Shown in pieces: positions 1 through 28,159 of a stretch of DNA of 64,000 nt (position 1 is the first letter of the stretch; each line of letters begins with the position of its first letter). The position numbers and the translations under genes are program-made. The stretch is taken from assembly GCA_949987565.1 (NCBI GenBank), contig OX465115.1:16243242-16307241 (forward strand), given 5' to 3'. The notes beneath the pieces are model-generated. The model did no database searches and was not told the origin of the DNA. It saw only the letters and a program-made list of their open reading frames with translations. The stretch comes from Luidia sarsii. Its lineage: Eukaryota > Echinodermata > Asteroidea > Paxillosida > Luidiidae.

Positions 1-388
1 TATAGAGATTGCATGTGTATACATTGCTGTCATTTCTGCGCAGATCAGTGATGTTGAAGTATTGTAGTATTATCAAACTTGAAGTGATAGTTTCAAACGT
101 ATACCTACTGGTAACTCCAGGTTCAGTCACATCGCCAAGTCTGAGTCTACGTTGTGTGTTTCCAGCTCCGATAGCCCATTCCACGATATAATTCGAGTCC
201 TGTAGATCCCGTCCGACACATCGCATCTCAACCATTCCTCCCTCCCTGATATTAACATCACTCGTCAATAGACGGACTTCCACCCTTGGTATTTGTGCAT
301 TGACAACCGTCAGGAGCCGACCTGCACCAAGTAAGCACCAAACACACAGGAGAATGATAAGCCTGTGGGACCGTGGCTCCATCGTCAT
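1..388 (-). CDS. Ig receptor, N-terminal part (cut by window edge)
   Basis: The start codon is at 388 and the frame stays open to base 1, giving about 129 residues of a longer protein. It begins MTMEPRSH and has a hydrophobic signal peptide ending near NAQIP, then a V-type Ig domain with the first cysteine in an EMRC context, a Trp about 14 residues later, and the closing DLRRNDSNVYTC motif. It is almost identical to the N-terminus of the gene at 8054-9343, including its 5' flank. The second Ig domain, membrane segment and tail lie to the left of the window. I infer a type I surface receptor of the same family as its neighbours; the ligand is unknown. Confidence 0.88.
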   Translation of the reverse strand, partial: MTMEPRSHRLIILLCVWCLLGAGRLLTVVNAQIPRVEVRLLTSDVNIREGGMVEMRCVGRDLQDSNYIVEWAIGAGNTQRRLRLGDVTEPGVTSRYTFETITSSLIILQYFNITDLRRNDSNVYTCNLY

Positions 389-650
389 CTCAAACCACGG
401 ATCGGAGGGGAGTGGTCATGAAGTCAGTCTACCCACACTGTCCAGCAGACTGCACAGCCGATATCACCTTCACCAACTATCGACACACGACTCACATACC
501 ACGAACGTCCTCCACACTTGGTTCTACCATTGTTTCTGTGACTTTCATTTCCGTGTAGGACGTGCATTGTGCATGCGCAGAGTGCCACATACCGCACTTT
601 ACCTGCGACCTCCATAGCGTTACAGCTTGGCGGTGCGCTCAAAAGGACCT

Positions 651-658
651 ATGCAAAT
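651..658 (-). promoter_or_regulatory. Octamer ATGCAAAT (ATTTGCAT on gene strand)
   Basis: A perfect octamer lies about 263 bp upstream of the start at 388. The same octamer sits at nearly the same distance in front of the genes starting at 9343 and 23141. POU-domain factors bind this motif, and it is a classical promoter element of vertebrate immunoglobulin genes. That it works here is inference. Confidence 0.45.
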
Positions 659-1837
659 TGAAGTTCATGTTTTCTTTACACAAATACACGGTTGATGTCA
701 CACCATTATGACACGGCGGGCCCCTTTCCTCTGCGCGTAAATGTTCTGCCTTCCGTTCAACCTTCCACACATACAGGCCTTGTCCAAAAGCACACAGCTT
801 AATACATAGACGCGTATGGAGGTTTTTAGTTTCCGTTTAGGGGAAAAATGGTTTCACTTTGCATTGGATAAGTGTGATTTGCCAGAATCTGCTGGGTAGA
901 ATGTTGATAAAAATGGTTTTGTTTCCCACGTTGGTCAATCCGATGTACATGACTTCGGCTGTGCAGGATCACCGTTCAGAAGTTAATATTTATAACAGAT
1001 GGAAAGGAGATAGAACTATCCGGTAGGCTATACATGCATCGGAAATGAGATTATCTCCTGTGAACCACCTGTAGTGTCATCTATAACCTTCAGCAAGAAT
1101 GTAGAAAAACTAAACGAGCATCTAAAGATTTTAGTCTTTTATTGGCATATGAAGGATTATGGATATTGATGATTTACACAAAATAGTGTGGAGAGGTTGG
1201 AAAGTCAGATAGCCTAACGTTCCCTTCTAGAAGGATCCGTTGATTATATTCATTTTTAGACATTTGAGGAAGCAGTTTGCAACATGTTTGTACAACTTTA
1301 CAAACGATTCGAACTATATTTTCAAAATGGATCCGAACCTGGAGCTGCCTCGTCCTGAAATCTTTGAAACCGTGACATCGTGATGAAGTGAATTACACCG
1401 TTCCCAGTAGTGCGGTGACCCCTTGCATATGCAGGAACTATTCTCCGATTTAAAGTCTGGCTCTGGAATAAGCCGAGAACCCAACAATTCAGACAGCTTT
1501 TGGTCTGAGATGAGCAATGTTAAAACTCTCATTTCGATATTTTCGCTTATATACACTCAAAAGGACACTTCTCAAACAGGAGTAGATAACATTCGCCAAA
1601 ATACAGTCTGACACAAGAACCAGTAAAATGTCTAACTATGTATATTCAAGACAACGTCTTTGGTGAATATGGTGAAAGAATCCTAATTGATACGACTAAT
1701 TCATTTTACTCTCTGTAAACCTCATTGCTTCACTTTTCACCTACACCATCTAATTAAATAGAGTTTCGTACAGTCCTATGTTTGAAAGGCTACTCTATTG
1801 ATCGAGAATATATAACATAAGATAAGTTAAAGAACAG

Positions 1838-1846
1838 TTTAATCTG
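1838..1846 (-). terminator. Possible ATTAAA polyadenylation signal
   Basis: On the minus strand AGATTAAAC lies about 30 bases past the stop codon of the Ig-less gene. The same signal is kept in the second copy near 10754. ATTAAA is a common variant signal; its use is not proven. Confidence 0.3.
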
Positions 1847-1872
1847 ATAGAGATTCCTGTCTTCCTGTCTCC

Positions 1873-2502
1873 TTACTTGCTCTTGTTTTTCACGACGACT
1901 GCATACACCGGTGCGTTGGGCGTGGACTGGGCGCAGTCTTCGTCCGTGCTGTGCTCGGATGCTTGGGTCGTAGGCGGTGGAGTCGTAGGCGGTGGAGTCT
2001 GCGACGAAGGGGCGTCGTTCTTCTCCGATCCCTGACGCTCGCTCTGCATGGTGGCCAGTCGATGGACCTTGTAGGGTCTAGGCTTCTCGGGGATCTTCTG
2101 TGCAGGCTGGGAATTCGATCTGCCCAGGGAGCCGATGAAAGGCGCTGCTTGAGGCTGGAGCGTGGCTGCCCGAGATGGCTCGGCGGGGTCCTCGCTGCTC
2201 TCCCCGGTAGACATGGACGCCACATCTAGGGGCTCGTAGTCTACCACGGCCTCGGCACTGGACGGGCCGGGACGGGCCCCGCACTCACGGGTGCTGGCTT
2301 CGCTGTCGGCGGTGGGGACTCGGAACTTGTAGGTCGTGCTGAACGGGTGGCGGCGCCGACGGGCCAGGATGGAGAGGGACAGGAGGATGAGACCCACCGC
2401 TAACCCTGAGCACACCCCGGCGATCAGGCCGCTGTTACACTGTCCACCCGAGCTGAGGGTGCTACCAGTCATTGAATCCATCGTGGGTGTCTCTCCAGTC
2501 AT
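1873..2502 (-). CDS. Ig-less short membrane protein with ITIM
   Basis: A 209-residue frame starting MTGETPT. There is a short outer segment, a transmembrane helix starting GLIAGVCSGLAVGLILLSLS, a stop-transfer RRRR, and then a Pro/Ser/Thr-rich tail. The tail has a canonical ITIM (V-D-Y-E-P-L), a basic proline motif (KIPEKPRPYK) and a final PVYAVV. Helix and proline motif match those of the 595-residue receptor upstream (GLIAGASAGG, RVPKKPSPYK), so this is a family member without Ig domains. The frame continues upstream to an ATG at 2670, but that stretch is frameshifted by a 4-base insertion in the second copy, so I chose the start at 2502. It could instead be a 3' exon of a split gene; a weak acceptor (CATCATTTAG) lies just upstream. 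It is visibly more GC-rich than its surroundings. Confidence 0.65.
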   Translation of the reverse strand: MTGETPTMDSMTGSTLSSGGQCNSGLIAGVCSGLAVGLILLSLSILARRRRHPFSTTYKFRVPTADSEASTRECGARPGPSSAEAVVDYEPLDVASMSTGESSEDPAEPSRAATLQPQAAPFIGSLGRSNSQPAQKIPEKPRPYKVHRLATMQSERQGSEKNDAPSSQTPPPTTPPPTTQASEHSTDEDCAQSTPNAPVYAVVVKNKSK

Positions 2503-3884
2503 GATGATAGCACACGCTAAATGATGCACAGATGCAGTCCAGAGACTTTCCCGAGAACTGCTCAGAGAGACTTCGTGGCAGATTAATTTTATTTCTCTGC
2601 AGCAGTAGGATGGATATTGAAGTTTCGTTTGGTTTATCCTGAAGCCATTTGTATTTCCTTCTACCATCATACACGAACTCTAACAATACATCGCGTGTGT
2701 GATGTTTGACTGGTAACGTTTGCGCAGCTTTCTTGCAGTTTCACTTACTGAAGAGTTGGGCCACGCCCTTGTCTTTTACGTGCCCTGGGTAAAAGGGCAC
2801 TTTCAGAGACGTTCAAAGTTCATTTTCAAAACGACCCATATCCATTTCCCCAAAAACAGAGGAAGTTTCGCTTTTGTCAGTCAAAAGTGTAACCAGTGTA
2901 AAAGGAAGGTAAGGTTACCGTGAATCAAGTGGGTGGATTTGGCTTCAATGAGCAGCAGTGAATGGTTGGATTTGTTTTTGCAAATGGGGAAATAAATTGA
3001 GAAGTGAGAACATGGCTCTTGCCTCCTTTTGGAAATGGTGCCTGCGCTCTTATGCTGTGTGTCGAAAGCGAAAGATTACTGTTATATTTCATTAACAAGT
3101 GCGCACGTGATTTATATATTCATATTTTGCTTTCATATCGCAGAGCGTTGAACATATTGTTGAATGCTAATCGTTTTGTACAATTAAAAAGATACCAGGA
3201 AAAATGTTGGAAATACAGACACCTTATGGTTGATACCGGTATATCACAAAGCGATAATATCCGTTTAATATTAAGACAAACGTTCCGTAAAAATTGGCAA
3301 ACTATTGCATACAGCCTTTTACTTCTCAACATTGCATATTTGTAGTAAAACAAATTTCCTCTTCGTTTTCATTATAAGTATTACCTATTAAGGATATGTA
3401 TAGCATTTTTGATCAGTTAAAACAGCATGGTGATTATTCTGAGAAAAGCAGGTATAGTGGCAGCTTATAATGTGATATGTACACGGCATGTAGTGGTATA
3501 AATGAAGCGTCTTTCTATTTACAATTCTATGAGCTGTCGAGCTGCCTGAGATGTTTTCATCGGGCATCGGGCAAAGCACTCAGCGCTCAATTACGTCAAC
3601 CAGGGCAAACACTCATCATTATTCTCCTCTCCGCAAAATATCATGTTATAAAAAAAGATATATGTTTCTATTTACAGTTGGCTGACTGCAGACAAAAATC
3701 CAAAAAGAGACAAGAAAATTCTACATGCATGACAGGTTGCAGGAGTGGTTAACCTCACTCTTTGTCCAATGTTCGCTATCATATCTTGGCTAAGCATGCG
3801 GTTGTAACACTATGGTAAAAAGGAAATGTCAGTGGTGGCATCACATAGCAGAAACCAACCAACTAATGAATCCAGGAAATAAAG

Positions 3885-4090
3885 TTATTATACAAAAACT
3901 GCTCACTGACTAAAATGACCTGCAATACATCAATCACAAAAGTTCGAGGGCCTGACGTTTCGATCCTAGCAGGAACTTTCTCAAAGTTCCTCGAACTTTT
4001 GAAATCCAGGAAATGATAGATATTGGTGCAAGGAAGTCCAGTACTGTATTTGTACACAGAATGGTAAATTATTGAACAATTCATTGGACA
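3885..4090. repeat. MITE-like element
   Basis: Carries the family core GCCTGACGTTTCGATCCTAG followed by a CAGGAACTTTCTC variant. It is flanked by the other family hallmark, ACTGCTCACTGACTAAAATG, and an inverted copy of its own AAAGTTCGAGG end. The same element recurs in the second duplication copy. Confidence 0.6.
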
Positions 4091-4395
4091 TATCACTAAC
4101 AGGCTGATGGGTAGGTATCGGTATCGTGATCTATAAAAGTAAGGTCACTTGGTCACAAAGTTCATGTCCATGTTCATGTACTGGTCTGTTACCTCATGGA
4201 AGAATTAAATCGCCAGGTTGAGGCCATGTGGTGGTGAGATGTATTCACTGTTCTTTACTTAAAGCATTGCTTTTGAGATCCAGAGAAAATCTAATATATA
4301 AAGTGTATCATAATATATGCATCATAAAACAAGGTACATGTAGTCAAAAAAAAATCTGCATGAACTATCAACTTGGCCGCACGGAGAAAGGTTGT

Positions 4396-4421
4396 GACCC
4401 CCCCTTTTTTTTGGGGGGGGG
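4396..4421. repeat. C/T/G homopolymer run
   Basis: Consecutive C, T and G runs lie about 10 bases beyond the stop codon of the receptor gene. The second copy at 13313-13333 has lost the C run and keeps T and G runs of different length, as expected of a slippage-prone tract. Confidence 0.8.
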
Positions 4422-4430
4422 GTATTGTCC

Positions 4431-6218
4431 TCATTGCTGTGTGACAGTTGCATAGACTACTTGGTCCGATTGTTGGGCAGCCTCGTTATGGAGGGGATCG
4501 GACAAGTCCAGATCTGCATAGAGCAGAGGATTGGCAGAGGCTGGATCCACCACCGTGTTACTGGAATGCCTTGGCACTGTGACTTGAGCGTAGGATGGGT
4601 CTTGGTAGCTTGCTGGGTTGACCTCCCTGCTGCCTGTATAGCCGTCATCTTGGGACGCTACATGGGCGGTATCCTGGAGGTCAGCTGATGCTGGAGTAGA
4701 CGTAGACCGCCCTGCTGACTCCTGTCCGTGCCCGTGCTGCTGAGGAGGAGGCTGGTAAGTCGCTTCACTGCTGTGCTGTGCCTTGGCTTTGTAGGGGGAG
4801 GGTTTCTTGGGGACTCTAGTCATCGGTGCAACCATCGCCTGTGGTTTGCTGGGTGACGTTGGGTGTTCATCATGGGTCATATCATCTTGGTCCTTGCAAT
4901 CAAAGACAGGATTGGCGTAGCTCTGCTCAGCAGTATCAGCAAGTGTCTGGTCAGTCTCCCTCACCTTAGCCTCCTCAATGTTCTTGGCGTTTCTTTTGAC
5001 ATGTGGTTGGGCGTAGACTGGAGGAGTGTAGTGTCCAGACGTATTGCCTATTTCAGCCTCGTGTCGAGGGGCACTCGGTTGTTGTGGTGGATCTTCGATA
5101 TCCAGTGCGTCACTTCCGTAAATGTTAGGCTTAGAATCGTCCCTTTGGAAAGCTTGAGTCTCGTGACCTCTTTGTGTAAATGCTACATCGGGGCTGGATT
5201 TCTGTGTTTGTTTGCTGGCGCTCACCATGCGTCGCCTGCAAATCAGGATGAGAACCAGGATGAAGACAAGTGCAGCTATTCCTCCTGCAGATGCACCTGC
5301 AATCAGTCCGCCGTTGGATGCAGAGGGTGGTGTGATGCTCGGTGTTCCCATCGCCGATGTCACAGTAGTTTTTGGAACAATTAGGCTCACAGTAGTTTGT
5401 GTATCAGGGCTCACAGTAGTTTTTGTAAAAAGGCCAGTTTCAAGCTCTGGTGAAGTAAGTGCGCTGTCTCTTACTCTGATTGGTCCAATGGTACAAGATC
5501 GCGTCTCCCCTGGGTATGACAGCGAGGTAATCGTGCATTGGAATGTGACATTGTGATCTGATTCATCCAATGTCAAGGTCATTGCCCTCCAGACTGCGGT
5601 ACCACCATCCATTAACACTGACCACGCGTATGGGTCAGAGGTCATCGGGATTTGGCTAATGTCCATCCTGACTCGTGGGTTGCCAGACTCAGATGTACAC
5701 TGCGTGTTCAACTCTGTTCCAGTGTGTAGCTTAATGGGTCCGGAAGGGAAGCATATGGGGAAGGACTCATTAGGGAAGTACCTCACTGCTAGTGGTATGC
5801 TGGATGTGACTTCAACGATGTGTCCACCGCCTTGTGTGGGAGCGTAGACGGTGCATATGTATTCATTGCTGTCATCCCTCTGTAAATCAGTGATGATAAT
5901 GACTTGGGTAGTTTCCGTAGAACCTTGGTGAGTAATATCAATATCATACCGTGGATCAGTGGTTCTGACGTCATCACCCAATGTCAAAGTCCTGGCTGGA
6001 TCCTTTGTCCTCCACCCCACGATGTATTCTGATTCCAGGTTTGTAGCCACACAGGTCATCTGTACCTGCCCGCCCTCTTTATGCTCGGTCTCCGGTGTCG
6101 TGATCTGTGAAAACGCTACTGCCTCCGCACTGACTATCAGTACCAGTCTGCATGTACCGAACAGCAGGCTGCATAACACGAGTACAGACACTGGTCGTTC
6201 CATTGTGATGTACTGCAT
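4431..6218 (-). CDS. Intronless two-Ig receptor with tandem ITIMs (595 aa)
   Basis: Probably an inhibitory type I surface receptor. The signal peptide is about residues 6-31; Met6 (MERPVSVLVL) is an equally likely start. The V-type Ig1 has C56, W69 and C122 with a D..SNEYIC motif, and ends in a J-like glycine-rich G strand. Ig2 has C156, C174, C228 and C242, with a sequon at N223. A Thr-rich stalk with a short internal duplication leads to a transmembrane helix at about 303-327, followed by RRR. The 265-residue tail has two canonical ITIMs (L-L-Y567-A-D-L and V-V-Y589-A-T-V, 22 apart), an ITIM-like P-S-Y543-A-Q-V and further tyrosines. Phosphorylated ITIMs recruit SHP-type phosphatases in known families. 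All domains lie in one frame without introns, which is odd for Ig receptors. Its duplicate is 13345-15105. Confidence 0.92.
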   Translation of the reverse strand: MQYITMERPVSVLVLCSLLFGTCRLVLIVSAEAVAFSQITTPETEHKEGGQVQMTCVATNLESEYIVGWRTKDPARTLTLGDDVRTTDPRYDIDITHQGSTETTQVIIITDLQRDDSNEYICTVYAPTQGGGHIVEVTSSIPLAVRYFPNESFPICFPSGPIKLHTGTELNTQCTSESGNPRVRMDISQIPMTSDPYAWSVLMDGGTAVWRAMTLTLDESDHNVTFQCTITSLSYPGETRSCTIGPIRVRDSALTSPELETGLFTKTTVSPDTQTTVSLIVPKTTVTSAMGTPSITPPSASNGGLIAGASAGGIAALVFILVLILICRRRMVSASKQTQKSSPDVAFTQRGHETQAFQRDDSKPNIYGSDALDIEDPPQQPSAPRHEAEIGNTSGHYTPPVYAQPHVKRNAKNIEEAKVRETDQTLADTAEQSYANPVFDCKDQDDMTHDEHPTSPSKPQAMVAPMTRVPKKPSPYKAKAQHSSEATYQPPPQQHGHGQESAGRSTSTPASADLQDTAHVASQDDGYTGSREVNPASYQDPSYAQVTVPRHSSNTVVDPASANPLLYADLDLSDPLHNEAAQQSDQVVYATVTQQ

Positions 6219-8053
6219 CTGGACAAACTATGGCGTTAGTATTTCAATGTAGCTGACTTGTCATAAGCACGAACATACTTCCCAATCTAGAACGAACTAG
6301 ACTCGCTTATGATTTAGATATCAAGTTAGTTTCTAGCTTACACAGCTTGGAACAAATCCAGTCTGTACTTTGATTTCACAGTCAGAACCCAGTACACGTC
6401 GTTTGACATACGCAATGCACCGTGGCTTCCGTTACCCATAGGCCTATTGGTATTCTAAATAGGGTCATTAGGGTCGTGGTGCAAGGGTGTCGGCGCTTGG
6501 AACTTGCCGAATCCAACACGATTTGAATACACGTAGTTATGAATAGGTACAACTATGGAGGCAGGCACGTGACATACTGGGAAGGCGGAACTGCAATGAA
6601 GAAAATCGAGGAAAGCAGTGAAAAATGTTTTTACTTCTAGTGTCAGTGTCGCTATATAGCAGTGGGATCAGGACGCCCTCAAATAAAGACTTGAATATCG
6701 AACTATTTACCAGGAACACATTTATAATTGATTCTCTATCATATCTTATACCAGGACTCAAAGTGTCAATTAAAGATCCCACATGGTACGTGATTAACTT
6801 TTATATTGAGTGAATGCAATGAGTGCAGACCCGGGGACCTATAGGGCGCCCTCATTGTCGGCGAGGACAAAGAAATGAATAAAATTTCATTCCTCAAGAA
6901 CATAGCTTCAGAGTATCCATGGAATGTCCAGATCATGCATGTATTGTATCAATTGTGAAAGCCTTTAAATTGAAAAATATTGGCAACAAAGTACGGGTAT
7001 AAACAGCTAGAGATAAGGCCTATGTCAGCCGTGGTTTACGTCACATGATCACCAACGCTTTATTTATATGAAAGGTCAAGTATAGTTCATCTCTTTTCAT
7101 ACATAAACATTTATGAAATGAGTTTATGTACAGTCAATCTCCCACGTTTCCCATTGGCAACATTGGGGATAATTGTCTTTCCACTAATTTCAAATGCCGT
7201 ATAAGATTGTTATTCATGGGAATAAAGACCCATTGAAGACGTTCAACTTCCATTCAGTTCAAACCCCTTTTCAATAAAAGCAAAGCCATGCTAATATCCA
7301 TCTTTGAAACTTCAATACTTAAAACTCTTACTCTATCTTGTGGCCTAATTAAAGTGTGCTTTCACCAAGCCTTCATCGAAATAAATGTTTGTGATGCCGC
7401 TTTAAAGGATTATATGTTTGTTTTATACACTGCTAGATCTAAATACGAGCAATCCAGCCACATACTAGGCGAGTACAAATTATTATATTTCTTACTAAAC
7501 GTGATGGAGAAGGTTTTTCAAAAACAACCTGTATGCTTGTCCGCTATACGTTCACAATTCAGCTCAGTCTTCTCCAACATACATCGTGCCTAACTGTACA
7601 ACCTTGATTCATATTGATGACATGGAATTGATTGTACTATTACGAGCATTTGCAAAATGATCTTCGAGATAAATCCGGAATAAACATTATTAAGTGTGAG
7701 GAAAGGAATTGAGCGCTGGTACAGATAGAGTAGCCCAAACTAAAAGGTACATTCCATTTAGGCTTCAGATTACGATTACTTAACTAAATTGAGTTTCTGT
7801 GGAATCTAAATAAAAGGTACATGGTGCAGTTAGGAATATACACGGATTGATCTATAATTAAATGCAGCATTGTGATTATGACTGGGAAAGATGCTAAAAC
7901 AAAGCGAGGTGCCGATACTCTACAGTACATGGCTATTTGACAATTATCAGTAATCACTAAAATAATTTCATTTTCTGCGGAATCCAAATAAAAATGTGCA
8001 GCTGAATGAGCACAAAGGGCCTTTCTATTCAGGGATTATACTGAAGAACTGTT
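6219..8053. other. Intergenic, duplicated, no gene seen
   Basis: This stretch recurs at 15106-16922. It is AT-rich. The longest frame (7288-7593) is broken in the other copy, which argues against coding. I recognise no repeat family or exon. Confidence 0.5.
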
Positions 8054-9343
8054 TTATGACACTGCGATGTTTTCATATTTGTGGTCTCTGTTCCCTGGAT
8101 CAGCGTAGTCATATACGAGAGACTCATTGTCTACTGTCTGGTCGTAGTCTGACTGGTCAGCTGTGCTCTTATTGGACTCTAGTCCCATGTACTCAGTGTT
8201 CTTATCGTCTCTGGATTGTAGCTCCATGTAGGCTTCAGCTTCCATCACTTTGGCTGACTCCTGGTTTGCAATGTCACTAGTTTGTCCAAGTGTCCTCTCG
8301 TAGATCTTTTTCTGCCCTTGACCTTGAGGAGATCTGTTCTCGTCACCCATTGGCTGTAACTCCACCACGTGACCAGCTCCTGGCTTATCAGAAGGAGTGT
8401 CGTTTAGACGGCGTCTGAGTTTGATGTTGCAATAGACGAGGCAAATGATCAGAGTGACGGAGATGGCTAGGAAGATGGTAACTACCAGGAAGGCTGTCAT
8501 CCACTTATCACTGTCCTGGGTATACCCTGGGAGGTGTGTCGTAGGCATTGAGATTATCGCTGGTTGTGTACTTACTCCGATTGGTCCAATGGTACAAGAT
8601 TGAGTCTCCCCTGGGTATGACAGCGAGGTAATCGTGCATTGGAATGTGACATTGTGATCTGATTCATCCAATGTCAAGGTCATTGCCCTCCAGACTGTAG
8701 TACCACCATCCATTAACTCTGACCACACGTAAGGATCAGAGGTCATCGGGATTTGGCTAATGTCCATCCTGACTCGTGGGTAGTCAGACTCAGATGTACA
8801 CTGCGTGTTCAACTCTGTTCCAGTGTGTACTGTAATGGGTCCATCAGGGAAGCACATAGGGAAGGACTCACTGGGGAAGTACAGCACTGATATAGTGATG
8901 CTCTCACTGTCTATAAACTCTACTATTCCGCCTTCTAGGCCTAGAGGTGGGTATTCATAGAGATTGCATGTGTATACATTGCTGTCATTTCTGCGCAGAT
9001 CAGTGATGTTGAAGTATTGTATGGATGTGATACTTGAAGTGATAGTTTCAAACGTATACCTACTGGTAACTCCAGGTTCAGTCACATCGCCAATTCTGAG
9101 TCTCCGTTGTGCGTGTCCAGCTCCGATAGCCCATTCCACGATATAATTCGAGTCCTGTAGATCCCGTCCGACACATCGCATCTCAACCATTCCTCCCTCC
9201 CTGATATTAACATCACTCGTCAATAGACGGACTTCCACCCTTGGTATTTGTGCATTGACAACCGTCAGGAGCCGACCTGCACCAAGTAAGCACCAAACAC
9301 ACAGGAGAATGATAAGCCTGTGTGACCGTGGCTCCATCGTCAT
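8054..9343 (-). CDS. Intronless two-Ig receptor with ITAM-like tail (429 aa); crossover hybrid
   Basis: The signal peptide ends near residue 31 (VVNA/QIPR). Ig1 has C57, W71 and C126 (RRNDSNVYTC) with sequons at N112 and N119. Ig2 has C164, C182, C236 and C250. The stalk is short and the transmembrane helix is about 283-305. The tail has YMEL at Y372 and YMGL at Y385, nine residues apart, which fits a loose ITAM, then Y400, Y411, Y413 and a C-terminal YENI (Y423; YxN is a Grb2-type SH2 site). N-terminus and 5' flank match the gene at 1-388, while Ig2, helix and tail match 16923-18269. The duplication junction therefore lies within this gene, making it a hybrid. An activating or adaptor-recruiting role is inference. 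Confidence 0.92.
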   Translation of the reverse strand: MTMEPRSHRLIILLCVWCLLGAGRLLTVVNAQIPRVEVRLLTSDVNIREGGMVEMRCVGRDLQDSNYIVEWAIGAGHAQRRLRIGDVTEPGVTSRYTFETITSSITSIQYFNITDLRRNDSNVYTCNLYEYPPLGLEGGIVEFIDSESITISVLYFPSESFPMCFPDGPITVHTGTELNTQCTSESDYPRVRMDISQIPMTSDPYVWSELMDGGTTVWRAMTLTLDESDHNVTFQCTITSLSYPGETQSCTIGPIGVSTQPAIISMPTTHLPGYTQDSDKWMTAFLVVTIFLAISVTLIICLVYCNIKLRRRLNDTPSDKPGAGHVVELQPMGDENRSPQGQGQKKIYERTLGQTSDIANQESAKVMEAEAYMELQSRDDKNTEYMGLESNKSTADQSDYDQTVDNESLVYDYADPGNRDHKYENIAVS

Positions 9344-10789
9344 CTCAAACCACGGATCGGAGGGGAGTGGTCATGAAGTCAGTCTACCTACACTGTCCAG
9401 CAGACTGCACAGCCGATATCACCTTCATCAACTATCGACACACGACTCATACCACGAACGTCCTCCACACTTGGTTCTACCATTGTTTCTGTGACTTTCA
9501 TTTCCGTGTAGGACGTGCATTGTGCATGCGCAGACCACATACCGCACTTTACCTGCGACCTCCATAGCGTTACAGCTTGGCGGTGTGCTCAAAAGGACCT
9601 ATGCAAATTGAAGTTCATGTTTTCTTTACACAAATACACGGTTGCTGTCACACCATTATGACACGGTGGACCCCTTTCCTCTGCGCGTAAATGTTCTGCC
9701 TTCCGTTCAACCTTCCACACATACAGGCCTTGTCCAAAAGCACACAGCTTAATACATAGATGCGTATGGAGGTTTTTAGTTTCCGTTTAGACAAAAAAAA
9801 TGGTTCCACTTTGCATTGGATAAGTGTGATTTGCCAGAATCTACTGGGTAGATCGTTGAAAAGAATGGTTATGTTTCCCACGTTGGTCAATCCGATGTAC
9901 AGAACTTCGGCTGTGCAGGATCACCGTTCATCAGAAGTTAATATTTATAACAGATAGAAAGGAGATAGAACTATCCGGCAGGCTATACATGCATCGGAAA
10001 TGAGATTATCTCCTGACATGTGAACCACCTGTAGTGTCATCTATAACCTTCAGCAAGAATGTAGAAAAACTAAACGAGCATCTAAAGATTATAGTCTTTT
10101 ATTGGCATATGAAGGATGATGGATATTGATGATTTACACAAAATAGTGTGGAGAGGTTGGAAAGTTAGATAGCCTAACGTTCCCTTCTAGAAGGATCCGT
10201 TGATTATATTCATTTTTAGACATTTGAGGAAGCAGTTTACAACATTGACTATATTTTCAAAATGGATCCAAACCTGTTACGGCCTCGTCCTGAAATCTTT
10301 GAAACTGTGACATCGTGATGAAGTGAATTACACCGTTCCCAGTAGGGCCGTGACCCCTTGCATATGCAGGAACTATTCTCCGATATAAAGTCTGGCTCTG
10401 GAATGAGCCGAGAACCCAACAATTCAGACAGCTTTTGGTCTGAGATGAGCAATGTAAAAACTCTCATTTCGATATTTTCGCTTCATATACACTCAAAAGG
10501 ACACTTCTCAAACAGGAGTAGATAACATTCGCCAAAATACAGTCTGACACAAGCACCAGTTGAATGTCTAACTATGGATATTCAAGACAACTTCTTTGGT
10601 GAATATGGTGAAAGAATCCTAATTGACACGACTAATTTATTTTACTCTCTTTTCACCTACACCATCTAAACAAAATAGAGTTTCGTATAGTCCTATGTTT
10701 GAAAGGCTACTCTATTGATCGAGAATATATAACATAAGATAAGTTAAAGAACAGTTTAATCTGATAGAGATTCCTGTCTTCCTGTCTCC
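9344..10789. other. Intergenic, conserved receptor 5' flank then unique DNA
   Basis: The first 310 bp repeat the 5' flank seen at 389-700 and 23142-23465. The remainder pairs with about 700-1870 of the first copy. No supported exon. Confidence 0.55.
9601..9608 (-). promoter_or_regulatory. Octamer ATGCAAAT, second copy
   Basis: A perfect octamer about 258 bp upstream of the start at 9343, within the conserved 5' flank. A TTTCATTTCCGTG box lies between it and the gene. Confidence 0.45.
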
Positions 10790-11419
10790 TTACTTGCTCT
10801 TGTTTTTCACGACGACCGCGTACACCGGTGCGTTGGGTGTGGACTGGGCGCAGTCTTCGTCCGTGCTGTGCTCGGATGCTTGGGTCGTAGGCGGTGGAGT
10901 CGTAGGCGGTGGAGTCTGCGACGAAGGGGCGTCGTCCTTCTCCGGTCCCTGACGCTCGCTCTGCATGGTGGCCAGTCGATGGACCTTGTAGGGTCTAGGC
11001 TTCTCGGGGATCTTCTGTGCAGGCTGGGAATTCGATCTGCCCAGGGAGCCGATGAAAGGCGCTGCTTGAGGCTGGAGCGTGGCTGCCCGAGGTGGCTCGG
11101 CGGGGTCCTCGCTGCTCTCCCCGGTAGACATGGACGCCACCTCAAGGGGCTCGTAGTCTACCACGGCCTCGGCACTGGACGGGCCGGGACGGGCCCCGCA
11201 CTCACGGGTGCTGGCTTCGCTGTCGGCGGTGGGGACTCGGAACTTGTAGGTCGTGCTGAACGGGTGGCGGCGCCGACGGGCCAGGATGGAGAGGGACAGG
11301 AGGATGAGACCCACCGCTAACCCTGAGCACACCCCGGCGATCAGGCCGCTGTTACACTGTCCACCCGAGCTGAGGGTGCTACCAGTCATTGAATCCATCG
11401 TGGGTGTCTCTCCAGTCAT
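10790..11419 (-). CDS. Ig-less short membrane protein with ITIM, second copy
   Basis: Duplicate of 1873-2502 with the same length (209 residues from MTGETPT) and only a few substitutions, such as VDYEPLD to VDYEPLE. It has the same transmembrane helix, ITIM at VDYEPL, KPRPYK motif, poly-Thr/Pro segment and PVYAVV ending. Upstream of this start a 4-base insertion (ATTT) shifts the frame relative to the first copy, while the 209-residue part is intact in both. That supports this start, or a 3' exon beginning nearby. It may act as a decoy or scaffold for SH2 or SH3 proteins; this is a guess. Confidence 0.65.
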   Translation of the reverse strand: MTGETPTMDSMTGSTLSSGGQCNSGLIAGVCSGLAVGLILLSLSILARRRRHPFSTTYKFRVPTADSEASTRECGARPGPSSAEAVVDYEPLEVASMSTGESSEDPAEPPRAATLQPQAAPFIGSLGRSNSQPAQKIPEKPRPYKVHRLATMQSERQGPEKDDAPSSQTPPPTTPPPTTQASEHSTDEDCAQSTPNAPVYAVVVKNKSK

Positions 11420-15105: not shown

Positions 15106-16922
15106 CTGGACAAACTATGGCGACAGTATTTCAATGTAGCTGACTTGTCACAAGCACGAACACACTTCCCATCTTAGACACGCTGGTAATGTAATCATGT
15201 TGGTCTATACACAGCTTGGAACAAATCCAGTCTGTACTTTGATTTCACAGTCAAAACCCAGTACACGTCGTTTGACATACGCAATGCACCGTGGCTTCCG
15301 TTACCCATAGGCTTATTGGTATTCTAAATAGAGTCATTAGGGTCGTGGTGCAAGGGTGTCGGCGCTTGGAACTTGCCGAATCCAACACGATTTGAATACA
15401 CGTAGTTATGAATAGGTACAACTATGGAGGCAGGCACGTGACATACTGGGAATGCGGAACTGCAATGAAGGAAATCGAGGAAAGCAGTGAAAAATGTTTT
15501 TACTTCTAGTGTCAGTGTCGTTATATAGCAGTTGGATCAGGACGCCCCCAAATAAAGACTTTAATTTCGAACTATTTATCATGAACACATTTATAATTGA
15601 TTCTCTATCATATCTTATACCAGGACTCAAAGTGTCAATTAAAGACCGCACATGGTACGTGATTAACTTTTATATTGAGTTGATGCAATGAGTGCAGACC
15701 TGGGGACCTATAGGGCGCCCTCATTGTCGGCGAGGACAAAGAAATGAATATAATTTCATTCCTCAAGAACATGGCTTCAGAGTATCCATGGAATGTCCAG
15801 ATCATGCTTGTATTGTATCAATTGTGAAAGTTTTTAAATTGAAAAATATTGGCAACAAAGTACGGGTAAAAACAGCTACAGATAAGGCCTATGTCAGCCG
15901 TGGTTTACGTCACATGATTGCCAACGCTTTATTTATATGAAAGGTGAAGTATAGTTCATCTCTTTTCATACATAAACATTTATGAAATGAGTTTATGTAC
16001 AGTCAATCTCCCACGTTTCCCATTGGCAACATTGGGGATAATTGTCTTTCCAATAATTTCAACTTCCGTATAAGATTTTTAGTCATGGGAATAAAGAACC
16101 ATTGAAGACGTTCAACTTGCATTCACTTCAAACCCCTTTTCAAGACAAGCAAAGCCATGCTAATATCCATCTTTGAAACTTCAATACTTAAAACTCTTAC
16201 TCTATCCTGTGGCCTAATTTAAGTGTGCTTTCACCAAGCCTTCATCGAAATAAATGTTTGTGATGCCGCTTTAAAGGATATTATGTTTTTATGCACTGCT
16301 AGATCTAAATACGAGCAATCCAGCCACATACTAGGCGAGTACAAAGCATTATTATATTTCTTACTAAACGTGATGGAGAAGGTTTTTCAAAAACAACCTG
16401 TATGCTTGTCCGCTATACGTTCACAATTCAGCTCAGTCTTCTCCAACATACATCGTGCCTAACTGTACAACCTTGATTCATATTGATGACATGAAATTGA
16501 TTGTACTATTACGAGCATTTGCAAAATGATCTACGATATAAATCCGGAATAAACATTATTAAGTGTGAGGAAAGGAATTGAGCGCTGGTACAGATAGAGT
16601 AGCCAAAACTAAAATGTACATTCCATTTATGCTTCAGATTACGATTACTTAACTAAATTTAGTTTCTGTGGAATCTAAATAAAAGGTACATGGTGCAGTT
16701 AGGAATATACACGGATTGATCTATGATTAAATGCAGCATTGTGATAATGACTGGGAAAGATGCTAAAACAAAGCGAGGTGCCGATACTCTACAGTACATG
16801 GCTGTTTGGCAATTATCAGAAATCACTAAAATAATTTCATTTTCTGCGGAATCCAAATAAAAAGGTGCGCCTGAATGAGCACAAATTTCCTTTCTATTCA
16901 GAGATTATGCTGAAGAACTGTT
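15106..16922. other. Intergenic, second copy of 6219-8053
   Basis: AT-rich and collinear with the first copy. Open frames differ between the copies, so I see no gene here. Confidence 0.5.
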
Positions 16923-18269
16923 TTATGACACTTCGATGTTTTCATATTTGTGGTCTCTGTTCCCTGGATCAGCGTAGTCATACACGAGAGACTCAATGTC
17001 TACTGTCTGGTCGTAGTCTGACTGGTCAGCTGTGCTCTTATTGGACTCTAGTCCCATGTACTCAGTGTTCTTATCATCTCTGGATTGTAGCTCCATGTAG
17101 GCTTCAGCTTCCACCACCTTGGCTGACTCCTGGTTTGCAATGTCACTAGTTTGTCCAAGTGTCCTCTCGTAGTTCACTGTCTGCCCTTGACCTTGAGGAG
17201 ATCTGTTCTCGTCACCCATTGGTTGTAGCTCAACCACGTGACCAGCTCCTGGCTTATCAGATGTCATGTCTTTTAGACAGCGTCTAAGTTTTATGATGTA
17301 ATAGAGAAGGCAAAAACTGAGAGTAGCGAAGATGGCTAGGAAGATGGTAACCACCAGGAAGGCTGTCATCCACTTGACACTGTCCTGGGTATACCCTGGG
17401 AGGGGTGTCTTAGACATTGATTGTGCAATGGTACTTTTAGATGGTGGATGAGATGACATAATCGCTTTCTCACTGGTCGTTGGCTGTGTAATTAGTTCCC
17501 TGGTGGGATTTGCTTGGTCTCTCACTCCGATTGGTCCAATGGTACAAGATCGCGTCTCCCCTGGGTATGACAGCGAGGTAATCGTGCATTGGAATGTGAC
17601 ATTGTGATCTGATTCATCCAATGTCAAGGTCATTGCCCTCCAGACTGTAGTACCACCATCCATTAACTCTGACCACACGTAAGGATCAGAGGTCATCGGG
17701 ATTTGGCTAATGTCCATCCTGACTCGTGGGTTGCCAGACTCAGATGTACATCGCGTGTTCAACTCTGTTCCAGTGTGTACTGTAATGGGTCCATCAGGGA
17801 AGCACATAGGGAAGGACTCACTGGGGAAGTACAGCTGAAATACTGATAGCATTACACTGGATGTGACTACAACGATGTGCCCACCGCCTTGTATGCGTTC
17901 ATTGACATTGCATATGTATTCATCAGTGTCATCCCTCTGCAAGTCAGTGATGGTAAAGACTTGAGTAGTTTGCCAAGTATCTGTATGTGTAGTCTCGAAC
18001 TCAAATCGTCTGTTAGCAGTTATAGTACTATCGCCCCATCTCAGAGTCATCAGTGGGTCCTCTGTCCTCCACTCCACGAAGTGATCTGGTTCCAGGTTTG
18101 TAGCGACACACCTCATCTCCACCTGCCCGCCCTCTTTACGATCGGCCTCCGGTGTTACGATCCATACAGACACTGTTGGCTGTGCAGTAACGACCACAGT
18201 CAGTCTCTCCGGCTGTCCCCCTACAAACCACACCACACACATCCACAATGCATACACCTTTCCATCCAT
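16923..18269 (-). CDS. Intronless two-Ig receptor with ITAM-like tail (448 aa), mosaic
   Basis: The signal peptide (MDGKVYALWM...) ends near VVTA/QPTV. Ig1 has C54, W67 and C120 (RDDTDEYIC). Ig2 has C156, C174, C228 and C242. A longer Ser/Thr stalk leads to a helix at about 302-326. The tail has YMEL (Y391), YMGL (Y404) nine residues apart, and a final YENI (Y442). Ig2, helix and tail match 8054-9343 almost exactly. The N-terminus and Ig1 instead match the ITIM receptor at 26588-28159 (PEADRKEGGQVE motif). One ectodomain type is thus attached to both tail classes, as in paired activating and inhibitory receptors. A two-residue insertion (FQ) lies at the Ig1/Ig2 junction. Confidence 0.92.
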   Translation of the reverse strand: MDGKVYALWMCVVWFVGGQPERLTVVVTAQPTVSVWIVTPEADRKEGGQVEMRCVATNLEPDHFVEWRTEDPLMTLRWGDSTITANRRFEFETTHTDTWQTTQVFTITDLQRDDTDEYICNVNERIQGGGHIVVVTSSVMLSVFQLYFPSESFPMCFPDGPITVHTGTELNTRCTSESGNPRVRMDISQIPMTSDPYVWSELMDGGTTVWRAMTLTLDESDHNVTFQCTITSLSYPGETRSCTIGPIGVRDQANPTRELITQPTTSEKAIMSSHPPSKSTIAQSMSKTPLPGYTQDSVKWMTAFLVVTIFLAIFATLSFCLLYYIIKLRRCLKDMTSDKPGAGHVVELQPMGDENRSPQGQGQTVNYERTLGQTSDIANQESAKVVEAEAYMELQSRDDKNTEYMGLESNKSTADQSDYDQTVDIESLVYDYADPGNRDHKYENIEVS

Positions 18270-21635: not shown

Positions 21636-23141
21636 TTACAATTTTGGAATATTTTCATACTGTTTGTCCTGGTTCCGTGGTGCGGTAACCATCTCATACT
21701 GAAGGTTCTTGTCTTCAATGTTTTCATAATCTTTGCCTTCCTCTTCACATTGAATTGTTTGGCAGTATGCATAGTTGGCTGGATTAGATTTAGTCTCCTT
21801 CAGTCCCATGTACTCTGTGTTCTTGTTATTTGTTGGTTGTAGCTCCATGTAGGCATCGGTGTTGGTCTCCTTAGTTGTGCCTTGTAAACCCTCACGAGGC
21901 TGGCAATGAGTGCTCTGATCATGAGAGTCTCTCGCTGTGAGTCCCATGTAGTCTCTTTCCGAGTCATCCACTGGTTGTAGCTCCATGTAGGCATCAGTGT
22001 TAGTCTCCTTAGTTGTGCCCTGTAAACCCTCACGAAGCTGGCAGTGAGTGCTCTGATCTCTTGGTGTGAGTCCCATGTAGTCTCTTTTCGTGCCTCCTAT
22101 TCCTTGCAGTCCGGTGTGGTCTTCGGTTTTCTGACGGTCGGTGGGCATTTCTGCGTTCGGTGCTGGTGTCTGAGGTCTGTGCTTCACTCGTAGCTTTCGG
22201 TAAATCCAGATCGGAATCAAGATGGCCACGGTGATTAGCAGGACAGTCGCAACACCGCCTGCAAATGCGCCTGCGATCAGAGCGATGTCTGGTGACGATG
22301 GGGAGGCTGATGGTTGAGATGGTGTGGACGTTGCTATCAGTGTCTGCTCCGTTGTGGATGTGTCTTGCCTCACAGTTATTGGCCCAATGGTACACATATT
22401 ACTTCTATTAGGGAATGACGCTGACGATATGAAGCAGGCGATTGAAGCATTTTCATCAGCTGCGGTGGCAGTAAGATTTAACGACATTGAGATTGTTTCA
22501 CTGTTGTTCACTGCCGTCCATGTGGGATAGTTGTTGGATTGATCGTCCGAGTATTTAAACACCTTCATTGTGACTGATGAAGGGTTACCGGTCTCAGATG
22601 TACATCGCATGTTCAACTCTGTTCCAGTGTGTACTGTGATGGGTCCATCAGGGAAGCACATAGGGAAGGACTCACTGGGGAAGTACAGCACTGATATAGT
22701 GATGCTCTTACTGTCTATAATTTGCAATCTTCCGCCTTCTAGACGTGGGTATTCATAGAGATTGCATGTGTATACATTGCTGTCATTTCTGCGCAGATCA
22801 GTGATGTTGAAGTATTGTATGGATGTGACACTTGAAGTGATAGTTTCAAACGTATACCTACTGGTAACTCCAGGTTCAGTCACATCGCCAACTCTGAGTC
22901 TCTGCTGTGTGTTTCCAGCACCGATATCCCATCCTACGATGTAATCCGAGAAATCTAGACCTCGTCCGACACATCGCATCTCAACCATTCCTCCCTCCCT
23001 GATATTAACATCACTCGTCAATAGACGGACTTCCACCCTTGGTATTTGTGCATTGACAACCGTCAGGAGCCGACCTGCACCAAGTAAGCACCAAACACAC
23101 AGGAGAATGACAAGCTTGTGTGACCGTGGCTCCATCGTCAT
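21636..23141 (-). CDS. Intronless two-Ig receptor with doubled ITAM-like module (501 aa)
   Basis: Starts MTMEPRSHKL, with a signal peptide to about residue 31. Ig1 (C57, W71, C126) matches the 8054-9343 type. Ig2 begins like the others (C162, C180) but from about residue 184 to its last cysteine (C236, C250) its sequence is different, with several new Asn-X-Ser/Thr sites. The helix is about 287-314. The tail has a tandem module of about 45 residues (around 363-401 and 408-447). Each copy holds DAYMELQP and YMGL nine residues apart (Y385/Y398 and Y431/Y444), and another YMGL lies at Y355. YENI (Y472), YEMV (Y482) and a final YENI (Y495) follow. It is the most tyrosine-rich tail here and probably a strong adaptor-recruiting, activating-type receptor, by inference. 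Confidence 0.92.
   Translation of the reverse strand: MTMEPRSHKLVILLCVWCLLGAGRLLTVVNAQIPRVEVRLLTSDVNIREGGMVEMRCVGRGLDFSDYIVGWDIGAGNTQQRLRVGDVTEPGVTSRYTFETITSSVTSIQYFNITDLRRNDSNVYTCNLYEYPRLEGGRLQIIDSKSITISVLYFPSESFPMCFPDGPITVHTGTELNMRCTSETGNPSSVTMKVFKYSDDQSNNYPTWTAVNNSETISMSLNLTATAADENASIACFISSASFPNRSNMCTIGPITVRQDTSTTEQTLIATSTPSQPSASPSSPDIALIAGAFAGGVATVLLITVAILIPIWIYRKLRVKHRPQTPAPNAEMPTDRQKTEDHTGLQGIGGTKRDYMGLTPRDQSTHCQLREGLQGTTKETNTDAYMELQPVDDSERDYMGLTARDSHDQSTHCQPREGLQGTTKETNTDAYMELQPTNNKNTEYMGLKETKSNPANYAYCQTIQCEEEGKDYENIEDKNLQYEMVTAPRNQDKQYENIPKL
21801..22055 (-). repeat. In-frame tandem duplication in receptor tail
   Basis: Two adjacent near-identical coding blocks of roughly 120-135 bp each encode CQ-REGLQGTTKETNTDAYMEL followed by YMGL. 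Differences are few, so the duplication is recent relative to the gene family. Confidence 0.85.
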
Positions 23142-23401: not shown

Positions 23402-23409
23402 ATGCAAAT
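23402..23409 (-). promoter_or_regulatory. Octamer ATGCAAAT, third receptor copy
   Basis: Perfect octamer about 261 bp upstream of the start at 23141, inside the conserved flank. Confidence 0.45.
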
Positions 23410-26214: not shown

Positions 26215-26345
26215 AAATGTTGCATCTGCTTACTGACTAAACAGACCAAACGGCGAATATCAAACAATTAGGATGGCCTGACGTTTCGATCCTAGCAGGA
26301 CCTTTCTCAAAAGCTTGCTATGATCGAAACGTCAGGCCCTCCCAA
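26215..26345. repeat. MITE-like element with inverted ends
   Basis: GGCCTGACGTTTCGATCCTA...CAGGACCTTTCTCAAAAG is followed within 30 bases by its reverse complement ATGATCGAAACGTCAGGCC, so the element can fold back on itself. Confidence 0.65.
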
Positions 26346-26587
26346 ACAAGTAAACTGTGAGGCCTATCATTTATAATCCCGTCTTCAAGCTTTGCTGTAA
26401 TGGTAACATTTCTAGAGGACGGTTCAACTTATTTCAAGATATGGGATGCAAAGAGCAGTTCGTTTGTTTGAATCAAGCAAGTCAGTGAGCTGGTGAAAAG
26501 CGGTGATCGGCGATGAGCGAGAACCAATAGAATACGGACTGGCTGTGTGATGGTATTTCTACGGTAATTTCATCTATTAATGTGGAG

Positions 26588-28159
26588 CTACTTTTTCCTG
26601 ACTTGTGCATACATCACCGCCTCGGGCAATGGCGCAGTCGCTTCATCGTAATCAGTCAAGTCCGGGGGAAAGTCCAGATCTGCATAGAACAGATGATTGG
26701 CAGAGGCTGGATCCACCACCGTGTTACTGGAATGCCTTGACACTGTGACTTGAGCGTAGGATGGGTCTTGGTAGCTTGCTGGCTTGACCTCCCTGCTGCC
26801 TGTATAGCCGTCATCTTGGGACGCTACATGGGCGGTATCCTGGAGGTCAGCTGATGCTGGAGTAGACGTAGACCGCCCTGCTGACTCCTGTCCGTGCCCG
26901 TGCTGCTGAGGAGGAGGCTGGTAAGTCGCTTCACTGCTGCGCTGTGCCTTGGCTTTGTAGGGCGAGGGTTTCTTGGGGACTCTAGTCATCGGTGCAACCA
27001 TCGCCCGTGGTTTGCTGGGTGACGTTGGGTGTTCATCATGGGTCATATCATCTTGGTCCTTGGAATCAAAGACAGGATTGGCGTAGCTCTGCTCAGCAGT
27101 ATCAGCAAGTGACTGGTCAGTCTCCCTCACCTTAGCCTCCTCAATGTTCTTGGCGTTTCTTTTAACCTGTGGTTGGGCGTAGACTGGAGGAGTCTGGGCT
27201 CCAGACGTCCTTCCTGACTGACCTGTTTGGTTCAGTGGTATATTATTGTTTGATTTCTGAGGTTCTTTCTTGTTGCGGACTCTGCGTCTGTGACAAATCA
27301 GGATGAGAGCGAGGATGAAGACAAGTGCAGCTATTCCACCTGCAGATGCACCTGCAATCAGTCCCACGTTGGATGCAGTGGGTGGTGTTTCTGTACTATT
27401 AGTATCGGTGGAAGTGGGTTTGAGTTTCAGACTTATTGGACCGATCTCACAAGATCGCGTCTCCCCTGGGTATGACAGCGAGGTAATCGTGCATTGGAAT
27501 GTGACATTGTGATCTGATTCATCCAATGTCAAGGTCATTGCCCTCCAGACTGTAGTACCACCATCCATTAACTCTGACCACACGTAAGGATCAGAGGTCA
27601 TCGGGATTTGGCTAATGTCCATCCCGACTCGGACGTTGCCAGGCTCAGATGTACATCGCATGTTAAACTCTGTTCCAGTGTGTACTGTAATGGCTCCATC
27701 AGGGAAGCACAAAGGGAAGGACTCACTGGGGAAGTACAGCACTGATAGCATTACACTGGATGCGGTTACAATGTCGGTCCCACCACCTTGTATGGGATCA
27801 TTGACATTGCATATGTATTCATCAGTGTCATCCCTCTGCAAGTCATTGATGGTAATAACTTGAGTAGTTTGCCAAGTACCTGTATGTGTAGTCTGGAACT
27901 CAAATCGTCTGTTACCAGTTATAGTACTATCGTCCCATCTCAGAGTCATTTCAGGGTCATCTGTTCTCCACTCCACGATGTGATCTGGTTCTAGGTTTGT
28001 AGCGTCACACCTGATCTCCACCTGCCCGCCCTCTTTACGATCGGCCTCCGGTGTTACGATCCATGCAGTCACTGTTGGCTGTGCAGTAACGACCACCAGG
28101 TGTCCACCTACAAACCACACCACAGTACACATCAAACACGCCGATACTCTTCCAGCCAT
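26588..28159 (-). CDS. Intronless two-Ig receptor with ITIM tail (523 aa)
   Basis: The signal peptide (MAGRVSACLM...) ends near VVTA/QPTV. Ig1 has C51, W64 and C117 and is closest to that of 16923-18269. Ig2 has C151, C169, C223 and C237. The helix is about 266-289, followed by RRR. The tail from VYAQPQVKRN onward is nearly identical to the receptors at 4431 and 13345, but the last 30 or so residues are replaced. After L-F-Y492-A-D-L comes a new segment with DYDEA and a canonical V-M-Y517-A-Q-V, ending RKK. Two ITIMs are thus kept although the C-terminal segment differs. The membrane-proximal part of the tail is shorter than in its relatives. The inhibitory role is inferred. Confidence 0.92.
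   Translation of the reverse strand: MAGRVSACLMCTVVWFVGGHLVVVTAQPTVTAWIVTPEADRKEGGQVEIRCDATNLEPDHIVEWRTDDPEMTLRWDDSTITGNRRFEFQTTHTGTWQTTQVITINDLQRDDTDEYICNVNDPIQGGGTDIVTASSVMLSVLYFPSESFPLCFPDGAITVHTGTEFNMRCTSEPGNVRVGMDISQIPMTSDPYVWSELMDGGTTVWRAMTLTLDESDHNVTFQCTITSLSYPGETRSCEIGPISLKLKPTSTDTNSTETPPTASNVGLIAGASAGGIAALVFILALILICHRRRVRNKKEPQKSNNNIPLNQTGQSGRTSGAQTPPVYAQPQVKRNAKNIEEAKVRETDQSLADTAEQSYANPVFDSKDQDDMTHDEHPTSPSKPRAMVAPMTRVPKKPSPYKAKAQRSSEATYQPPPQQHGHGQESAGRSTSTPASADLQDTAHVASQDDGYTGSREVKPASYQDPSYAQVTVSRHSSNTVVDPASANHLFYADLDFPPDLTDYDEATAPLPEAVMYAQVRKK

Follow-up and report, generated by a model that had tools for sequence, protein, structure and literature searches.

Single-frame receptors with two immunoglobulin domains and two tail classes in the sea star Luidia sarsii, probably a paired-receptor system renewed by recombination

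The 64 000 nucleotides of the sea star Luidia sarsii analysed here (contig OX465115.1, here C18, C18:16243242-16307241, in a genome of 470.9 Mb; hereafter the window) harbour a tandem cluster (cluster A) of genes for receptors with two immunoglobulin (Ig) domains, which end in one of two long tails: an i class, of the type of the immunoreceptor tyrosine-based inhibition motif (ITIM), and an a class, rich in tyrosines. We consider that these genes probably form a paired-receptor system encoded in the germline, in which recombination exchanges the signalling tail, a reading to which we give a probability of roughly three in four. It draws on the two tail classes, the ectodomains common to both, recurrent swaps between them, duplication ends that lie inside genes, and the exon order of candidate signalling partners.

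Cluster A lies on the minus strand. Three of its complete receptors carry a tandem ITIM tail: R1i (A1i; 595 aa, 4431..6218, with LLYADL ... VVYATV at 4443..4526), R3i (A3i; 586 aa, 13345..15105, with the same pair at 13354..13437) and R6i (A6i; 523 aa, 26588..28159, with LFYADL ... VMYAQV at 26600..26692). The other three carry a poly-tyrosine tail: R2a (A2a; 429 aa, 8054..9343), with YMEL-x9-YMGL at 8180..8230 and YENI at 8066-8077; R4a (A4a; 448 aa, 16923..18269), with the same motifs at 17049..17099 and 16935-16946; and R5a (A5a; 501 aa, 21636..23141), with two YMEL-x9-YMGL units at 21801..21989 and YENI at both 21717-21728 and 21648-21659. The 5' part of a seventh receptor, A0i, comprising signal peptide and Ig1, occupies 1..388; its frame runs on to C18:16241827, left of the window, and the flank completes a 600-aa frame whose ITIM-type tail bears LVYADL and TDYATV. 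Counting this flank gene, the cluster totals four i and three a (other-type) receptors, intermixed. Each of the six window receptors shows a hydrophobic N-terminus, two Ig regions, a single transmembrane (TM) peak and a long tail. The initial annotation had described six complete two-Ig receptors and a partial one on a single strand, each complete one with signal peptide, Ig domains, TM helix and tail in one frame, three with tandem ITIMs and three with YxxL-x9-YxxL plus YENI, and on all these points it was borne out. Frames of 1.3-1.8 kb with the whole domain order and with relatives in other species are not accidental. A second cluster (cluster B; C18:15.894-15.962 Mb) lies on the opposite strand and holds 17 genes, namely 5 i, 11 a (one of them broken) and 1 other.

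Judged from sequence, two homologous tail classes exist. First, hidden Markov models (HMMs) of the tails, trained with one subfamily left out at a time, recognised the a tails at E-values of 4.7e-7 to 6e-67 and most of the i tails as well (for example B17i at 1.2e-10 and P0023 at 7.9e-41). Second, tyrosine columns, picked because 60% or more of the representative rows hold Y there, had an identity of 0.92 against 0.22 for the remaining columns in i tails (3 columns, 8 representative rows), and of 0.79 against 0.26 in a tails (5 columns, 7 representative rows). Third, a C-terminal pair YA[DE]L...YAx[VI], with a Tyr-Tyr distance of 22-27, was present in 14/15 i tails and 0/44 a tails, a count that is descriptive, as the i and a labels were themselves assigned from motifs, this pair among them, and from tail HMMs. 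This motif tally left out the truncated i tails P0003 and P0024, all rows labelled 'o', and P0012, P0013, P0016, P0025, P0028, P0029, P0036, P0037, P0040 and P0045, and kept the cut-short P0027 as a. At least one strict ITIM occurred in 13 of the 15 i tails and at least two in 8, a strict tandem ITIM being [SIVL]xYxx[ILV] twice; shuffling of the tails of B2i, a cluster-B gene, and of the three ITIM genes in the window produced two strict ITIMs at a distance of 15-35 residues in 0.2-0.45% of cases. Median tail length is 101 aa for the a class versus 286 aa for the i class.

Most a tails contain YMELQ, often as DPYMELQ, with a second tyrosine 13 residues further. A YxxL/I-x9-YxxL/I pair was seen in 8/44 a tails, all of the source genome, a YxxL/I/V-x9-YxxP pair in 31/44, and Y-x-N sites, motifs that could dock Grb2-like adaptors, in 28/44; a charged residue or histidine fell in the hydropathy-peak TM window of 3/44 a receptors. 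The canonical immunoreceptor tyrosine-based activation motif (ITAM; YxxL/I-x6-8-YxxL/I) was found in 0/44 a tails, x9 lying outside the 6-8 spacing, and this count rules out a canonical ITAM for the second tail. Because a tails lack that motif, we only infer their 'activating' sign. What survives of the activating-type tail put forward by the initial annotation is thus a distinct tyrosine-rich class, with a relaxed YxxL/I/V-x6-12-YxxL/I/V pair in 31/44 a tails versus 1/15 i tails; such relaxed pairs may leave room for a non-canonical ITAM. The missing canonical ITAM, the x9-YxxP pairs and the Y-x-N sites would also suit an arrangement with no activating/inhibitory opposition, in which the two tail classes either both inhibit or both serve as docking sites of graded output. 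We regard it as unlikely, though a serious contender: the classes differ in length, motif and homology yet are repeatedly joined to the same ectodomains, and the relaxed ITAM-like pair is largely confined to one of them.

Tyrosine units are also multiplied within tails. A 138-bp in-frame minisatellite repeats the YMEL/YMGL unit 3.5 times in intact B4a and in broken B6 (L041 2021-2501 and 7877-8358), and P0018 (Asterias rubens), P0048 and P0050 (Asterias amurensis) repeat another tyrosine unit. The broken a-class gene of cluster B (C18:15911828-15913551, L041) has an interrupted frame with one TGA, and its neighbours are intact.

The joints between ectodomains and tails can be located in the DNA. 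In seven of seven i/a pairs compared, an identity of 88.4-94.8% gave way to one of 36.6-43.0%. For five pairs the break comes after residues 259, 277, 299, 247 and 186 (88.6-94.8% before, 36.6-43.0% after), and for A4a/B2i and B4a/A6i it falls at most five residues from the Ig2 end, as in A4a/A6i; the differing breakpoints argue for several events. The mirror case is A2a versus A4a, where the tails are of one class and the synonymous divergence (dS) is 1.8 in Ig1 and 0.028 in Ig2. Whole-gene duplication followed by fast divergence of the tails in place would account for the tandem duplication, which is plain. It does not account for the abruptness with which all seven pairs drop from 88-95% to 37-43% identity, nor for the match of most diverged tails to their own class in far genes (weak for A0i and B13i); we rejected it on these two grounds and give it next to no credence.

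Trees of the ectodomains point the same way as the breakpoints. A tree of 47 rows implied 12 i/a label changes, at least 6-7 of them forced by well-supported branches, and a second tree of 52 rows implied 13-14, at least 8-9 of them forced. The first left out P0010 and P0027 (no end motif), P0012, P0013, P0016, P0025, P0028 and broken B6; for the second, eight Asterias rows of the first and B1o were removed and 14 of 22 new proteins added, and P0029, P0030, P0036, P0037, P0040, P0045, P0048 and P0050 were not used. Clades with both tails comprise B10-B13, B14-B17 and A0/A2/A5 in the source genome and P0042/44/46/47/49 in Asterias. When labels were shuffled, values as low were reached in 37/500 (a) and 248/500 (i) trials on the 47-row tree and in 55/500 (a) and 115/500 (i) on the 52-row tree, so that labels are not clustered on either. 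By this sequence evidence, ectodomains and tails have repeatedly recombined in germline DNA.

An 8.7-kb segmental duplication, its copies 93.8% identical, has copy 1 at 1..8551, starting 160 bases left of the window and ending inside A0i (Ig2) and R2a (stalk), and copy 2 at 8789..17420, ending inside R2a (Ig2) and R4a (stalk). A match that reaches from one receptor's Ig2 into the stalk of the following receptor suggests unequal crossing-over between receptor genes. Identity between the copies is 95.7-97.0% in intergenic DNA, 90.7% in Ig2 and 86.4% in Ig1, the last differing from the 97.0% of the flank between C1 (an Ig-less frame described below) and R1 at a Fisher P of 3e-13. Synonymous divergence of Ig1 is raised as well (0.17; about 13/86 sites versus 3%, P 1.8e-6), which points to imported sequence rather than amino-acid selection alone. 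Ig1 dN/dS (the ratio of nonsynonymous to synonymous divergence) lay between 0.30 and 1.33 for all but one of 22 pairs, and the remaining pair, at 2.45, had only 3 synonymous changes; since synonymous divergence is also raised, we claim no positive selection. The Ig2 cassette of R2a (about 320 bp, 8570..8892, minus strand) is 92.5-96.9% identical to Ig2 of eight genes, four per cluster and one of them broken, and 73.9% identical to that of B3a. A Sawyer-type run test on Ig2 was significant in 22/91 pairs, 12 of these between clusters A and B. The same test on the combined ectodomain (49/91 pairs) is inflated by the slower-changing Ig2 and was not relied on.

The receptors of the window belong to a family spread over the genome. 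With R4a as query, the genome yielded 53 match rows, counted as 49 loci, and at 48 of these the match sits in a single open frame of 383 aa or more; 52 of the 53 rows fall within such frames, the exception being part of a broken gene. With R3i (51 rows) the result was alike, the broken gene and one frame of 283 aa being the exceptions. Both searches went frame by frame, a procedure that may miss relatives split into small exons. Distant members lie on contigs C3, C5, C6, C7, C17, C24 and C25 (R4a search) and C15 (R3i search), many of them 25-35% identical and likewise in long single frames. Control sets also yielded frames of at least 383 aa, in 1/150 rows for protein tyrosine phosphatase (PTP) domains, 5/46 for Src homology 2 (SH2) domains, 26/149 for I-set domains and 53/150 for kinase domains. 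Long single frames are therefore not unique to the receptor family and are near-universal only there among the five sets compared; the kinase and I-set rows led us to drop the one-frame layout as a family-specific mark. Many of the kinase-domain matches also occupy long single frames, several similar copies on contig C13 among them (for example C13:10846593-10863711), and may mark another expansion of single-frame genes.

At the protein level, A. amurensis, A. rubens, Patiria miniata and Acanthaster planci proved to have relatives. A profile built from 17 diverse members drew 47 hits, with E-values no worse than 1.8e-67; the 39 that are named are all from sea stars, and at the sensitivity of a word-based search there was no named match outside them. 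P0017, P0022, P0026, P0039 and P0045 come from contigs of about 1.5-3.9 kb. Both tail classes occur in A. amurensis and, through P0036, in Patiria: this public P. miniata gene model fuses an ITIM-type tail to the next, a-type receptor, which suggests that i and a types are adjacent there too. Two further two-Ig single-frame relatives, with short tails and few tyrosines (C18:2577760-2579076 and 2581922-2583175; L050 and L051), may form a third class without a signalling role; P0021 from Patiria clusters with the first of them, starred in the 47-row tree and unstarred in the 52-row tree.

These distributions bear on the origin of the one-frame layout. A recent retrotransposed founder, with the array as its young local expansion, would explain coding frames devoid of introns and the single frames at 48/49 loci. 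We think this very improbable, because the far members are also long single frames and relatives in other sea stars share the protein layout. No split, intron-bearing parent was present among the R4a and R3i genome matches, which come from searches that could miss small exons; with the far members also in one frame, any intron loss looks old. The initial annotation had proposed a paired array that expanded in tandem from a retrotransposed founder. Its single frames, matched ectodomains, differing tails and tandem growth hold, and an account by local duplication alone does not: the family extends through the genome and into other sea stars, and pairing appears to be renewed by ectodomain-tail recombination also.

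At the level of fold, the neighbours listed are generic Ig proteins. Pfam gave an Ig-type match to the first domain in 6/6 receptors at E up to 1; it reads Ig1 as Ig_3/V-set type, and only the 'ig' match of R6i exceeds the curated cut-off. In an AlphaFold2 model of R4a, mean predicted local distance difference test (pLDDT) values were 86-97 for blocks of Ig1 and 73-94 for the second Ig region, the TM helix spanned 297-333 and the tail was disordered. VIA-align superposed residues 30-145 of this model on the antibody V domain 6uup_B at 2.2 A over 107 residues. Profile matches in the PDB were mostly antibody chains (best 60 of 853), and the Foldseek neighbours, among the rows listed, were antibody chains and Dpr/DIP neuronal Ig proteins, with no specific family. 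No sushi domain was found by Pfam or in the AlphaFold2 model, only the two Ig regions. B16a and B17i (C18:15955797-15961593, L046) have RYVAP where B14a has RCVAP, and have thus lost the first canonical Ig1 cysteine (cysteines counted); they share this although their tails are opposite.

The Dpr/DIP neighbours raise the alternative that these Ig proteins serve cell adhesion or the nervous system, that their tyrosine motifs are used in trafficking or scaffolding, and that the family grew with no part in immunity; long disordered tails on two-Ig type I membrane proteins are indeed common. Tandem clusters, a fast-changing Ig1, differing tails on common ectodomains and a conserved ITIM-like pair at a Tyr-Tyr distance of 22-27 fit such proteins poorly, and we judge the alternative improbable.

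Besides the missing canonical ITAM, several results weigh against a recombining paired-receptor system. Homology to the i tails is weak for A0i (1.6e-3), truncated P0024i (2.6e-4) and B13i (1.4e-4), and the ITIM-tail HMM did not recognise B8i, yet all four were labelled i in the trees; B14a-B16a lack the YMEL tyrosine. For the 47-row tree the bootstrap had yet to converge, and long branches were flagged in both trees. Acanthaster hits have i tails only and A. rubens hits a tails only. A single coding frame is compatible with introns in the untranslated regions (UTRs). The ends of the 8.7-kb match could have been set by later conversion of gene ends. The run test was significant in only 4/91 pairs for Ig1 and, on third positions only, in 4/91 for Ig2 and 0/91 for Ig1; conversion appears supported for Ig2 and hardly for Ig1, where we set it aside as weak. 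B8i itself (C18:15917762-15920137, L042) is a protein of 791 aa with five YAxV-type motifs and without a strict ITIM.

We nevertheless favour the paired-receptor system with recombining tails, for which the following mechanism may be proposed; it presumes phosphorylation, partner binding, a ligand, immune-cell expression and a given sign for the second tail. Germline-encoded receptors at the sea-star cell surface would pair inhibitory with counter-signalling members, the ligand being bound by a variable, V-like Ig1 carried on a common Ig2. Phosphorylation of an ITIM-type tail by a Src-type kinase would bring in a tandem-SH2 phosphatase of SHP type and so quieten the cell; SH2 adaptors or kinases would gather on a poly-tyrosine tail and act in the opposite sense. 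Candidate partners are present in the genome as exon matches in order. On C18 (6.542-6.557 Mb), SH2 exon matches at 6541951, 6543374 and 6543927 are followed on the same strand by PTP exon matches at 6554286-6557054, an apparent SHP-type gene order; on C19 (2.979-3.000 Mb), SH2 exon matches at 2978502 and 2990130 are followed on the same strand by kinase exon matches at 2997998 and 2999884, an apparent Syk-type gene order. Unequal crossing-over and gene conversion between neighbour genes would attach ectodomains to either tail and, because the coding part is one frame, matched opposite-tail pairs could keep re-forming.

Paired ITIM/activating receptors are thought to evolve repeatedly, usually through exon shuffling. 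Here the logic of paired receptors would be met in one-frame genes of an echinoderm, where swap breakpoints can be read base by base, and the origin of such receptors would become directly testable outside vertebrates. More tentatively, and as a possibility rather than an expectation, sea stars may keep a germline engine that flips receptor polarity: unequal crossing-over and conversion within the single-frame genes would re-attach a diverging Ig1, via a homogenised Ig2, to an inhibitory or a counter-signalling tail; if so, freshly matched pairs would arise in each sea-star lineage. The same genes are concrete candidates for sea-star allorecognition, and could supply the missing recognition molecules for that of coelomocytes in Patiria pectinifera and for allograft rejection in Dermasterias.

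Two Ig-less frames lie among the receptors of cluster A. C1 (265 aa, 1873..2670, minus strand) has a short N-terminus, a TM segment and a tail with PYK and VYA motifs; C2 (209 aa, 10790..11419, minus strand) corresponds to its conserved 209-aa part, from 2502 (MTGET), with DNA about 98.6-98.7% identical. They form a pair because the 8.7-kb duplication copied the segment. The frames called Ig-less relatives in the initial annotation thus exist, and their kinship to the receptors found no support: tblastn of the window with C1 and C2 at E 1e-3 matched each to the other only and no receptor, the tail HMMs scored C1 at only -5.4 and -1.0 bits, and a whole-genome search found no third copy. The short motifs PYK and VYA are common to C1/C2 and the receptors by eye.

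Elsewhere in the window, an exon-sized frame next to cluster A (41614-42003, minus strand) matches DUF2452 (E 3.3e-37). Two histone 3'-UTR stem-loops (32610-32655 and 48361-48405, both minus strand) score above the Rfam gathering score; a Pfam scan of 20 frames gave no histone match. A TCCCA-type pentanucleotide array of 2.7 kb (45003-47693, 538.6 copies) yields mock open reading frames of more than 900 aa, and a 35-bp tandem repeat (57454-58025, 15.8 copies) has 70/105-bp units at 98%.

The comparison with known systems draws on portions of the papers cited. Among the titles and abstract openings listed from open-licence literature, none described such a receptor family for sea stars or echinoderms. 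Coelomocyte allorecognition is described in P. pectinifera, and Dermasterias allograft rejection is cited in the introduction of the same paper, whose main text has 0 occurrences of the word 'receptor' by term count (PMC9763293); for echinoderms, a review on immune diversification from 2026 points to expanded germline families, with 0 occurrences of ITIM (PMC13428168). The sea urchin Sp185/333 (SpTransformer) genes form a mosaic immune cluster for which conversion, recombination and mispairing have been proposed (PMC1988830). They resemble the present family as an echinoderm mosaic cluster, whereas the sea-star genes are Ig receptors with signalling tails.

Among other invertebrates, the oyster receptor CgIgIT2 has a tyrosine activation motif and, in contrast to the two-Ig receptors of the sea star, five Ig domains, with no opposite-tail partner described in the portion used (PMC11999971). 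Hydractinia Alr genes are invertebrate allorecognition candidates with ITIM/ITAM-type motifs (PMC12065747), and resemble the sea-star family in this. The Botryllus FcoR locus encodes V-sushi-C2-C2 ectodomains with ITIM, hemITAM or core YxxI/L/V tails, and oligomorphic FcoR loci swap the tail motif by alternative splicing (PMC12065747). Like FcoR, the sea-star receptors are Ig receptors of an invertebrate deuterostome with mixed tails; unlike FcoR, they have two Ig domains and no sushi domain, and their swaps appear to occur in germline DNA.

A further parallel is offered by vertebrate paired Ig receptors (KIR, LILR/PIR, SIRP, CEACAM and XFL), in which opposite tails on like ectodomains, ITIM-type motifs, arrangement in tandem, birth-and-death and recombination between genes have been described (PMC2413239, PMC3533184, PMC5112662). 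Xenopus XFL genes are split, with two signal-peptide exons, separate Ig exons and, in the long-tailed class, tail exons apart from the TM exon (PMC2413239). The sea-star genes share with these systems matched ectodomains, differing tails, arrays, ITIMs and recombination. Activating partners in vertebrates are often short-tailed and paired with adaptors; in the sea star both tails are long, and a canonical ITAM occurs in 0/44 a tails. KIR, LILR, FcR and SIRP genes devote a separate exon to each domain, whereas the sea-star receptors hold all their domains in one frame.

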